In this document: positions 58,374 to 61,507 of the stretch, in pieces
How the letters are laid out: the number at the start of each line of letters is the position of its first letter
How positions within the stretch are numbered: position 1 is the first letter of the stretch
Assembly: GCA_003388555.1 (NCBI GenBank)
Contig: QQVD01000068.1
Coordinates: forward strand, 1 to 64,000
Source: Acidobacteriota bacterium
GTDB lineage: Bacteria; Acidobacteriota; Thermoanaerobaculia; Multivoradales; Multivoraceae
Direction: 5' to 3'
DNA: 64,000 nt
Notes under the pieces: model-generated
Database searches by the model: none
What the model saw: the letters and a program-made list of their open reading frames with translations, nothing else
Told to the model about the DNA's origin: nothing
Program-made: the position numbers and the translations under genes

Positions 58374-58565
58374 GGGACGAGGGACAAGGGACAAGGGACA
58401 AGGGACAAGGGACAAGGGACAAGGAGGGACAGCAGAGACTCTGCCTCTGTTTTCTAAGTTCTGCCTTCTAGGTTCTGCCTTCTAAGTTCTGCCTTCAGCT
58501 TCTCCCGTTCTTCCCTCTTCCCTCTTCCCTCTTCCCCACTCCCTCTTCCCTACTCCCCTCTCCCC
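58374..58565. repeat. Heptad-repeat block 1 (GGGACAA, TTCTGCC/TTCTAAG, TTCCCTC)
   Basis: Immediately after the aminotransferase stop, GGGACAA is repeated six times at 58381-58422, preceded by one variant copy. Then three 14-bp units (TTCTGCCTTCTAAG and variants) lie at 58459-58500, and 7-bp TTCCCTC-type units follow to about 58565. The repeats cover the end of the DUF3037 gene, supplying its last residues and TAG stop. Period is 7 or 14 bp almost throughout. Confidence 0.92.
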
Positions 58566-59026
58566 TCCGCACACGCGTGCCGCTGGTTCTCGTCGAGCCC
58601 GGGCGCAGCGCGCTCGAGAATGCGCTGCAGCTCTCGCCTCGCGTCGCGGGTGCGCCCGACGTGGATCTGCGAGCAGCGCACCACCGCCGAGCGCACGGCG
58701 GCGAGCCAGTGGAATCGCTCGCTGGCTGGCAGAGCGGCGAGGGTCCCCGCTTCGGCCACGCCCCTCGCGACGGCGACGAAGGCGTCGAGTTGGGCCTTCA
58801 TCTCGGCGAGATCGCAGCCGGGCTCGAGCAGTTCCGCGAGCTTCCAGCGATCGCTCAGCGCCACCTCGAGCCGCTTCTTCTCGTCGACCAGCTGCAGCAG
58901 CACGCCGGTGTTGACCGACTCCTCGCGATCGGCGCGCGGCACCACGCGCACCACGACGTAGCGGTAGGTCCGCCAGGCCGCCGGGGTGTCGGCGGAGCGA
59001 CTGGGCCCGCGGAGCGAGTCGCTCAT
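58550..59026 (-). CDS. DUF3037 protein
   Basis: A 158-aa protein of the DUF3037 family, recognised by YRYVVVRVVPRADREESVNTG followed by VLLQLVDEKKRLEVAL near the start. It has no catalytic motif that I can name and is predicted cytoplasmic, alpha/beta. It overlaps the upstream HipA-like kinase gene by 4 bp (ATGA), so the two are co-translated, an arrangement I believe recurs for DUF3037. The last seven codons and stop are made of heptad-repeat sequence. Function is unknown; a partner, regulator or target of the kinase is the likeliest role. Confidence 0.8.
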   Translation of the reverse strand: MSDSLRGPSRSADTPAAWRTYRYVVVRVVPRADREESVNTGVLLQLVDEKKRLEVALSDRWKLAELLEPGCDLAEMKAQLDAFVAVARGVAEAGTLAALPASERFHWLAAVRSAVVRCSQIHVGRTRDARRELQRILERAAPGLDENQRHACAEGRGE

Positions 59027-59835
59027 GCGGTCAACCCCAACACCGTGGTGACCGAGCGCACCCGAGCGCGCAGCAGGCCGCGGTAGGCGGCGCGAGCCTC
59101 GCCGCCGTGCTCGAAATCGGCCTGCACCCCGGCCGGCGCGTCGAGCAGCAGAGCGTCGGGCACAGCATCGAGCACCCTGTCGATCACGTCGTCGGCGAGT
59201 GCTCTTCTTGCCTCGTCGGCGGTGCTGCGCAGAGCGCTGGCGCGCGGCAGCAGCACGTGGTCGGCGAGCTGAGCGAACCGCCGCGACGCCTTCGCTTCGT
59301 CGACCGTGGCCCAGTCGTGATGCGGGTAGAGCGCGGCGCCGTGGTCGATCATCCACAGCCCGCCGCCCTGCACCATCAGGTTCGGGTTGCGCGCGGTGCG
59401 GTCGATGTTCCAGCACAGCGCGTCGAGACAGACGATGCGACTGGCGAGCAGCGGATCGACCCCGTCGAGGTCTGCCGCGGCGTCGAAGTTGTAGGCCCCG
59501 GCGAGGAAGTCCATGCCGACGTTGACGCCGCGGCTGGCGCGCAACACGTCCTGGATCTCGGGATCCGGCTCGAGGCGGCCGAAGTCGTCGTCGAGCTCGA
59601 CCACCCGCAGCTCCGGCACCGGCAGTCCCCAGGAACGCGCCAGCCCCCCGACCACCAGCTCGGCGACCAGCGCCTTCGCCCCCTGGCCGGAGCCGCGGAA
59701 CTTCAGCACGACGGTGGCACCGTCCTCCGTCTCCACCACGGCCGGCAGCGATCCGCCCTCGCGCAGCGGCACCACGTAGCGCACCGCGCGGTCGTGGGTC
59801 CAGAGAGGCGGGGCTGACGTCGAGTCCAGGGGCAT
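59023..59835 (-). CDS. HipA-like (HipA_2) kinase-fold protein
   Basis: A 270-aa protein with the minimal HipA/PI3K-like kinase core. Key residues are in place: ATP lysine K45 (TVVLKFRG), E59, catalytic D145 with metal-binding N150 in NIDRTARNPN, and the DFG-equivalent D164 in WMIDHG. Classical HipA is about 440 aa with an N-terminal domain that this protein lacks. Known HipA toxins phosphorylate GltX, but this short family is uncharacterised. ATG 59835 is used. It leads a two-gene operon with DUF3037 and sits between heptad-repeat blocks. Confidence 0.82.
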   Translation of the reverse strand: MPLDSTSAPPLWTHDRAVRYVVPLREGGSLPAVVETEDGATVVLKFRGSGQGAKALVAELVVGGLARSWGLPVPELRVVELDDDFGRLEPDPEIQDVLRASRGVNVGMDFLAGAYNFDAAADLDGVDPLLASRIVCLDALCWNIDRTARNPNLMVQGGGLWMIDHGAALYPHHDWATVDEAKASRRFAQLADHVLLPRASALRSTADEARRALADDVIDRVLDAVPDALLLDAPAGVQADFEHGGEARAAYRGLLRARVRSVTTVLGLTA

Positions 59836-59877
59836 GGGGGTTGGGGGTTGGGGGACAGGGGTTGGGGGTCAGGGAGC
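59836..59877. repeat. Heptad-repeat block 2 (GGGGGTT)
   Basis: Six consecutive 7-bp units follow the HipA-like start codon: GGGGGTT twice, GGGGGAC, AGGGGTT, GGGGGTC, AGGGAGC. They abut the ATG of that gene, so they occupy its ribosome-binding region. Confidence 0.88.
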
Positions 59878-60235
59878 GGAGCTATCGCGGCCCGCAGACC
59901 GCTGATGGTACGACGGGCGCGAGGCACCGCGGCAGAGCCCCGGTAGACTGCGCCGCAGTCTTGCGATTCGTCCGCCCGGGATCCAACCGCGAAGGGAGAC
60001 CGGTCACCTCGCGGACGACGCGTGGCCTGCTCTCACTCCCGTTCTCCCTGCGACTGCTGACCGCTCTTCTCTCTGTCGCTTCTCCTTTTGCCTCTTGCCT
60101 TTCCCTCCCTCCCGGTCCCTTTTCCCTAGTCCCTTTTCCCTAGTCCCTTTTCCCTAGTCCCTGAGCCCTGACCCCTGACGCCCCTGACCCCTTGCCCCCC
60201 AACCCCTCTCCGCCCCTCTCGCCGCCCGTCTCGTC
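59878..60235. repeat. Intergenic region with heptad/14-bp-repeat block 3
   Basis: From 60115 to 60156 the 14-bp unit GTCCCTTTTCCCTA is repeated three times exactly; degenerate 7/14-bp units (GTCCCTGAGCCCTG, ACCCCTGACGCCCC, TGACCCCTTGCCCC) continue to 60198. It is pyrimidine-rich on the plus strand. The first part (59878-60060) shows nothing recognisable. The block ends near the GTG start of the luciferase-like gene. Confidence 0.88.
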
Positions 60236-61219
60236 GTGCTCCCGCTCTCCATCCTCGACCTCTGCCCGGTGCCCGAGGGCTCGACCCCGGTCCAGGCGCT
60301 CGCCAACAGCCGACAGCTCGCCCACGTCGCCGAGCAGCTCGGCTACCGCCGCTTCTGGATGGCGGAGCACCACAACATGCCCGGCATCGCCAGTGCCGCG
60401 ACAGCGGTGGCGCTGTGCCACGTCGGCCAGGGCACGAGCACGATCCGCCTCGGCGCCGGCGGCGTCATGCTGCCCAACCATGCGCCGCTGGTCGTCGCCG
60501 AGCAGTTCGGCACCCTGGCCTCGATCTTCCCCGGCCGCATCGACCTGGGCCTCGGCCGCGCTCCGGGGACCGATCCGATCACGGCGCACGCCCTGCGCCG
60601 CAGCCGCGACGGCGACGTCGACGACTTCCCCCGCGACGTGCTCGAGCTGCGGCAGTACTTCGCCGCAGCGGACGACGGAGCCCCGGTCACGGCAGTGCCT
60701 GGAGCCGGGCTCGGGGTGCCTCTCTGGATCCTGGGCTCGAGTCTCTACGGCGCATCTCTCGCCGCCGCACTCGGGCTGCCCTACGCCTTCGCCTCGCATT
60801 TCGCACCCGCCGCCCTCGACCAGGCGCTCGACCTCTACCGCAGCCGCTTCGAGCCCTCGGCCCAGCTCGATCGGCCGCACGTGATGCTGGGCATGAACCT
60901 CTGCGCGGCGGACGACGCCGAGGAGGCGCGGTTTCTCAGGACCTCCGGACTGCAGGCGGTGCTGAACCTGCGCCGCGGCCGGCCCGGCCTGCTGCCGCGA
61001 CCGCGAGCCGACTTCGACTCCACCCTCGGCGCCGCCGAGCGTCAGCTGCTGGACGGCTTCAGGAGCTGCTCTGCGGTGGGAGGGCCGGAGGACGTCCGCC
61101 AGGCGATGAGCTCCTTCGCCGAGCGCACCGCCGCCGACGAGCTCATCCTGGTCTCCCAGATCTGGGATCCGGCGGCGCGGGTCCGCTCGTACGAGATCGC
61201 CGCGGGTCGGGCTCAGTAG
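60236..61219 (+). CDS. LLM-class flavin-dependent oxidoreductase (luciferase-like)
   Basis: A 327-aa TIM-barrel FMN/F420 oxidoreductase of the YhbW/MsnO8-like group. Markers are the start [79 protein letters not shown], and [27 protein letters not shown]. The start GTG at 60236 gives MLPLSILDL, the family beginning. It is likely an alkane- or flavin-monooxygenase-type enzyme of unknown substrate. It is flanked by heptad-repeat blocks on both sides. Confidence 0.9.
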
Positions 61220-61290
61220 GGGCTGGGGTTTGGGGGTCAGGGGTCAGGGGTTTGGGGGTCAGGGGTCAGGGGTCAGGCGTCAGGGGTTTC
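61220..61290. repeat. Heptad-repeat block 4 (GGGGTCA)
   Basis: Directly after the TAG stop of the luciferase-like gene come heptads of the GGGGTCA/GGGGTTT type, for example GGGGTCAGGGGTCAGGGGT, continuing to about 61290. It is purine-rich on the plus strand. Confidence 0.88.
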
Positions 61291-61440
61291 GAGACCGCGG
61301 CCGGGATTCTGAGCCGAAGTCGTACGACCCCGACGCACCTGCAGTGCGGTCGCCGCAACGACGCCGGCTGCATCGCGCGAGCGCCAACTCCTCCCCCTTC
61401 AGCGGGAGGACCGAGATGGGGGCGTCTCATCCAACCACTC

Positions 61441-61507
61441 CTCTTCCCTGTCCTTTGTCCCTCTTCGCTTGTCCCTTGTCCCTTTTCCCTTGTCCCTCGT
61501 CCCTCCC
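61441..61507. repeat. Heptad-repeat block 5 (TTGTCCC)
   Basis: TTGTCCC units occur at 61469 and 61476, TTTTCCC at 61483, TTGTCCC at 61490 and TCGTCCC at 61497, with further imperfect units either side. TTGTCCC is the reverse complement of GGGACAA of block 1. The block ends at the stop codon of the permease gene. Confidence 0.9.

Follow-up and report, generated by a model that had tools for sequence, protein, structure and literature searches.

The window, a stretch of 64,000 nucleotides, carries a compact HipA-like kinase gene followed on the same strand by a DUF3037 gene (Table 1). The first-pass annotation had described the two as an operon, and this holds: both frames are intact, the proteins match the Pfam families HipA_2 and DUF3037, and the two genes share an ATGA overlap. 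Each protein is the sole match to its family in the 6.8-Mb genome (E 1e-3). The genes flanking the pair run on the opposite strand and encode a class-V aminotransferase and a luciferase-like monooxygenase. Synteny, or an empty site in the family, could not be judged, as the nearest relative there of the luciferase-like gene (70%, in genome G003) lies at the edge of its contig of 4.6 kb. A scan for a sigma-70-like promoter found none, and the chance expectation was also none. Intergenic gaps of the window (58374-58567, 59835-59874, 60102-60200, 61218-61287 and 61440-61505) hold short G- or C-rich tandem repeats of 7 and 14 bases, among them GGGACAA and GTCCCTTTTCCCTA.

Table 1. Features of the kinase-DUF3037 pair, in positions of the window.
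Feature	Position	Strand	Description
HipA_2-type compact kinase gene	59023..59835	(-)	270 aa, first of the pair
DUF3037 gene	58550..59026	(-)	158 aa, short form without C-terminal extension
ATGA stop/start overlap of the two genes	59023..59026	(-)	From the sequence; ATG of DUF3037 and TGA of the kinase
K45 codon	59701..59703	(-)	K in 113/113 short-branch kinases
Catalytic loop and metal site, codons D145 to D164	59344..59403	(-)	From the short-branch alignment

The kinase frame has no internal stop over its 270 aa, and its translation matches HipA_2 (PF20613) with E 1.8e-12 and 47.5 bits, above the curated cut-off of 27. The residues K45, D145, N150 and D164, which had been named as kept, are all present; by homology we take them to be the ATP-binding lysine, the catalytic Asp, an Asn and the metal-binding Asp. 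These four, and also D138, N143, R146 and N152, are each found in 113/113 kinases of the short branch described below, a count that excludes the L012 kinase, which was shortened by ORF calling. The conserved catalytic loop is D138-x4-N143-x-D145-R-T-x-R-N150, and so extends beyond the residues first named. Judged by its sequence, the window kinase appears to have the complete residue set expected of an active HipA-fold kinase.

The AF2 model of the kinase has a mean pLDDT of 92.9 and a pTM of 0.91. Its nearest solved fold is CtkA of Helicobacter pylori (Foldseek E 1.4e-5; Z 16.7, 213 aligned, 3.2 A, 15% identity), and it also fits type II PI4-kinases (best Z 13.8, 227 aligned, 4.3 A), Shewanella HipA (4pu4; Z 12.1, 188 aligned, 3.5 A) and Legionella HipT (8ezs; Z 11.9, 192 aligned, 3.8 A). 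CtkA is presumably also a compact HipA-fold kinase; the likeness is one of fold, with no claim of shared function, and a PDB search by sequence from the window kinase did not find CtkA at E up to 1. Model residues 27-270 cover residues 150-427 of Shewanella HipA, and no N-terminal HipA family matched the window kinase (Pfam, E 1), which supports the absence of the HipA N-terminal domain noticed at first. None of the ten HTH_3 matches in the genome lies on the window's contig, which agrees with the earlier remark that no HipB-type antitoxin is nearby.

The second protein matches DUF3037 (PF11236) with E 2e-25 and 89.7 bits (curated cut-off 22.6). The domain covers residues 23-139 of 158, and the protein stops 19 aa past it. 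Its AF2 model, with a mean pLDDT of 86.5, was compared with the PDB to examine the idea of a split HipA, in which DUF3037 would be the missing N-terminal domain. Foldseek and VIA-align returned nothing convincing from the PDB, the top scores being E 0.52 and Z 3.1 (81 aligned, 11.8 A) respectively. The window DUF3037 is strongly diverged, with an end branch of 2.53 in the DUF3037 tree. It lacks Q117, which is Q in 112/113 short forms, and has A at 114, where 107/113 have T or S. Because of this divergence and these missing residues, a restraining role is less sure for the window DUF3037 than for its relatives.

DUF3037 was found at 71 places, comprising the window, 4 places in its order and 66 in a phylum sample. 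A HipA-like kinase gene lies directly upstream on the same strand at 54 of the 55 loci L001-L055; at L049, the only exception, a divergent methyltransferase-like ORF takes the kinase's place. Among the remaining 16 places, 14 have a HipA_2 match alongside (by eye), one (L172, G317:C100) has a kinase fragment at a contig end and one (L173, G236:C41) has no kinase. Short-form DUF3037 places with loci in the phylum sample lie beside a HipA_2 match in 30/30 cases, also by eye. A scan of a genome collection with kinases only gave at least 594 confirmed relatives. The 80 best were taken further, and in 79 of them DUF3037 overlaps the kinase end. The 80th locus (L099) could not be judged, since its contig ends 198 bases past the kinase. 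These two counts exclude chance pairing and bear out the proposal that the two genes form one system.

The refuting condition named at first, a pairing confined to close relatives, clearly does not hold, as the pair also occurs in Gemmatimonadota, in the genus Stenotrophomonas and in other phyla. Both families are present in the same 80 of 91 Stenotrophomonas genomes and neither is present in the same 11, with adjacency read by eye in about ten genomes. DUF3037 occurs in 11/121 Gemmatimonadota genomes, with a kinase at 10 of 11 distinct places; one Gemmatimonadota locus, L170, has a weak, partial DUF3037 match and no recognised kinase. No clear short-form gene without its partner was seen, L170 being ambiguous. 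HipA_2 kinases without a DUF3037 neighbour were considered as members of the branch and rejected: none of the nine places read (L174-L182, with places from 28 bits down left out) scored above 54 bits against a profile built from 25 kinases of the short branch, and the best of them, L174, is 26% identical to the window kinase. At L176 (1789-3438) a HipA_2 kinase of another branch is accompanied by a divergent DUF3037-like ORF (144 aa, 52.9 bits).

The pairs come in two architectures. In the short form, to which the window pair belongs, the DUF3037 protein has a tail of 5-32 aa past the domain (79 short pairs), and in the long form it is about 260-310 aa. Identity to the window kinase is 43-49% in 14 kinases of the short form and 20-22% in 8 of the long form. 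A FastTree tree of 132 of the 134 kinases, two being left out as too short, splits short from long kinases with support 98. The D145 column is a gap in 15/18 long-form kinases of the window's own phylum. The reference pair L138 is a long-form PDC-M66 pair that adjoins type I restriction genes, and it matches the PADLOC profiles PDC-M66A and M66B over nearly their full length (355.6 and 359.8 bits). The window kinase matches PDC-M66A at 74.8 bits (E 1.5e-21, positions 15-173 of 270), and the window DUF3037 has no match to the PDC-M66 profiles at E 1. One short and one long form are found together in 16 genomes of the phylum sample, so the two architectures are not simply interchangeable.

Long-form DUF3037 genes without a recognised intact kinase were found at L049, L139, L140, L141 and L173. 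Four of these were located at L141:7594-9807, L140:7608-8659, L049:2577-3392 and L173:2122-2910; one of the four is by a PDC-S20 gene, one by an apparent remnant of a kinase end (by eye), and two have no kinase at all.

The geometry of the gene overlap is kept within lineages, with the proviso that ORF calling is crude in GC-rich DNA and start sites there are less certain. The 4-nt overlap of the window pair occurs in 14/17 rows of its subclade (12/15 distinct) versus 1/107 other short pairs, and in 78 of those 107 the DUF3037 gene starts 23 nt before the kinase gene ends. No conserved third gene was seen among the 30 most frequent neighbour families of 80 loci. The neighbour families that recur are internal to Stenotrophomonas, scattered in offset and strand, or ORFs overlapping the pair.

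Beyond its own phylum, and going by record titles, the short branch was found in Bacteroidota, Gemmatimonadota, Pseudomonadota, Myxococcota, Cyanobacteriota, Actinomycetota, Ignavibacteriota and Rhodothermota, at least eight phyla, several of them by a single record each. Its kinases cluster mostly, and imperfectly, by phylum. The 61 Bacteroidota rows form one clade of the 132-kinase tree, and the 14 group labels need 14 changes where the minimum is 13; taken singly, the own phylum requires 5 and Pseudomonadota 2. A smaller IQ-TREE tree with 8 groups needs 10 changes, the minimum being 7. In Stenotrophomonas the short form is single-copy in 79/91 genomes, and one further genome (G405) has the long form. 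The family of Chitinophaga sp. CF118 has the short form in 70/147 genomes, judged by score and frame length, the long form in six, and a partial match in one.

Both genes are under purifying selection in Stenotrophomonas. Across eight Stenotrophomonas-type loci (28 pairs for each gene) the median dN/dS is 0.113 for the kinase and 0.125 for DUF3037, the latter value taking in overlapping sequence because in 7/8 loci the DUF3037 start used lies some 50 nt upstream of the kinase stop. The record of L057, one of these loci, bears the name Bacillus subtilis SK7B5 yet carries a Stenotrophomonas-type pair nested in Stenotrophomonas. Its genome (G344) falls within the Stenotrophomonas genus search, and the record is probably misnamed or contaminated.

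The window copy itself was most likely acquired laterally. The window kinase groups with 15 Gemmatimonadota rows and one Rhodothermota row with support 100/98 (two pairs of rows are identical), on an end branch of 0.87. Constraining it to its own order was rejected with p-AU 0.002, in a test made after the tree had been seen. DUF3037 is found in 1/24 genomes of the window's family, namely the window's own genome, and, in one other family of the order, in each of the four genomes sampled. Hidden paralogy is a possible alternative for the placement of the kinase. In the DUF3037 tree, which left out L063 and L169, the window copy has no supported place and its nearest rows are mostly from its own phylum; its branch is very long and unsupported, so this tree gives no backing to the kinase's link with Gemmatimonadota. 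L063 and L169 (G343:C43) are the same Gemmatimonadota locus, where DUF3037 lies in two overlapping pieces, as after a frameshift, beside an intact kinase.

The first-pass annotation had proposed counting how often such pairs go with defence islands. Around the window pair, PADLOC matched none of five ORFs (E 1e-10). A wider scan of the short form covered 124/204 neighbours at 22 of the 61 Bacteroidota loci (E 1e-15) and found 12 PADLOC families, each on one or two proteins: DndA, SspA, three RtcR-type families, MkoA (two), MkoC, GlgB, mad2, mad3 and PDC-S37. Several of these we take to be close relatives of ordinary enzymes, and mad2, mad3 and PDC-S37 may be genuine. The long-form scan covered 47/64 neighbours at 9 loci, with L137 and L139 left out, and found 84 families; many of the first 25 listed come from two type I restriction proteins at one locus. 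Ten proteins were checked singly, with strong defence matches in L138, L141 and L142, so that at least 3/5 long-form loci outside the own phylum have type I restriction, PDC-S20 or PD-Lambda-1 genes as neighbours. The short branch thus shows no evident defence island among the neighbours scanned, in a contrast of 22 versus 9 loci that is one of small samples without a random-genome baseline.

Mobility was considered as a divider of the two branches and dropped, as the phage and plasmid counts are alike across kinases. Three kinases were compared: that of the window, a short one from Stenotrophomonas and one like PDC-M66. All had 0 matches in 50,697 phage records, and in 72,556 plasmid records they had 6, 8 and 5 respectively. 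Since the PDC-M66-like kinase is likewise absent from the phage records, that absence does not separate the branches. A scan of IMG/VR with short kinases gave 24 pattern matches and 0 confirmed relatives. Long forms of the own phylum do lie in a phage-like packaging block, with pairs between Terminase_6C and Phage_portal genes at L143:5917-11051 and L144:5220-10062. This position fits the E. coli prophage origin of HipAD, as stated in a reference title in PMC13092281. In gut phages called Gratiaviridae, a gene for a HipA-like kinase is described as lying between those for portal and capsid (PMC8008677).

The pairing of DUF3037 with HipA-like kinases, and its reading as a toxin-antitoxin or anti-phage system, are already published. 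PMC12548924 describes DUF3037 as strongly associated with HipA-like proteins. It reports that in Retron-Sda1 of Sphingobacterium daejeonense the kinase is required for defence against Bas51, that deleting DUF3037 is toxic, and that this HipA-DUF3037 pair is PADLOC's PDC-M66. In DS-6, renamed HipAD, the partner is DUF3037 plus DUF1829, a kinase residue is needed, and the predicted DS-6A/DS-6B complex has an ipTM of 0.76-0.79 (PMC13092281). HipA kinases are classified in PMC8262856, whose main text, as available, mentions neither CtkA nor PF20613. No description of the short, tail-less branch as a group was found in the accessible text on DUF3037 and HipA-like kinases; the DUF3037-neighbourhood supplement of the PLoS Biology paper may show it. 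What we did not find described is this separate, apparently resident, tail-less branch.

Like PDC-M66, HipAD (DS-6) and Retron-Sda1, the window pair joins the gene of a HipA-like kinase to that of a DUF3037 protein and has no HipB-like partner. The effect reported for those systems depends on the kinase (PMC12548924, PMC13092281). Their DUF3037 partners, as far as described there, have an extra C-terminal part, either DUF1829 or a part similar to a DNA-binding protein, which the window DUF3037 lacks; and unlike PDC-M66 and HipAD, the window pair has no full-length match to the PDC-M66A and M66B profiles. With HipBST it shares a compact kinase without the HipA N-terminal subdomain (HipT; Legionella HipT fits the model). 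It differs from HipBST in having two genes, the kinase first, with no HTH_3 gene on the contig. HipBST also has a separate protein, HipS, that resembles the HipA N-terminal subdomain; the PDB scores given above do not show the window DUF3037 to be HipS-like. The kinase core and catalytic residues are those of classical HipBA, from which the pair differs in the N-terminal domain and the nearby HTH antitoxin that it lacks.

Based on these comparisons, we propose that the pair is an operon of a kinase and its restrainer, in which DUF3037 binds and quiets an active compact kinase, and that it serves as a resident switch more than as an anti-phage device; we put this at roughly one chance in two. 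The first gene would give an active compact HipA-fold protein kinase without the HipA N-terminal domain. The second, whose translation would be tied to that of the first through the ATGA overlap, would give a DUF3037 protein that binds the kinase and holds it quiet. A shift in the balance would free the kinase to phosphorylate a cellular protein and so slow growth. That the kinase may be toxic and DUF3037 neutralising is carried over from the published relatives, where the toxicity of DUF3037 loss in Retron-Sda1 fits a restrainer. GltX is a candidate target by analogy with classical HipA. DUF3037 would not repress its own promoter, as it has no C-terminal part of the kind found in published relatives. 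The short-branch module would be a regulatory or stress switch of the cell and not mainly anti-phage.

A broader version of this reading is more tentative. In it, the short branch would be an old resident bacterial kinase switch whose dedicated inhibitor, DUF3037, has a fold unmatched in the PDB, and HipAD/PDC-M66 would derive from it as a mobile lineage that acquired a C-terminal tail and entered prophages and defence islands.

The pair could instead be a full anti-phage toxin-antitoxin like HipAD/PDC-M66, in which a phage frees the kinase and the resulting growth stop aborts infection. It was reasonable of the first-pass annotation to suggest a toxin-antitoxin or defence module, since related pairs are reported to defend against phage: the homologous domain pair does so in Retron-Sda1 and DS-6 (PMC12548924, PMC13092281). 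The match of the window kinase to PDC-M66A points the same way, as do the patchy presence of the window copy in its family and the apparent lateral acquisition of its kinase, which are often seen with defence genes. A defence role is nonetheless unsupported for the short branch, which is near-core in Stenotrophomonas, mostly clustered by phylum, free of evident defence islands in the neighbours scanned (while at least three of five long loci outside the own phylum have defence genes beside them), and short of the C-terminal part of the published partners. We consider the anti-phage reading unlikely, at about half the weight of the kinase-restrainer operon.

Slightly less probable still is a housekeeping signalling pair without an antitoxin, in which DUF3037 is a positive partner of the kinase, as activator, substrate or substrate adaptor. 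The constraint on both genes in Stenotrophomonas would suit such a pair, and so would the lack of a clear unpartnered short-form gene, since antitoxins that lack a toxin should turn up now and then, as they do in the long branch. The toxicity of DUF3037 loss in the published relative (PMC12548924) speaks against it. That the window copy is a relic, or that its genes are accidental neighbours with no joint function, is very improbable, for despite the long branches of both proteins and a pair present in one of 24 family genomes, the frames are intact, the catalytic residues complete and the ATGA kept, and pairing elsewhere is near-universal.

The short branch makes the target of its kinase a concrete question in culturable genera such as Pedobacter and Dyadobacter. 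As the branch resembles resident cell machinery, automatic toxin or defence labels may mislead for many genomes. If the short branch is indeed an old resident switch, a widespread family of bacterial kinases would owe its classification as toxin or defence to association alone.
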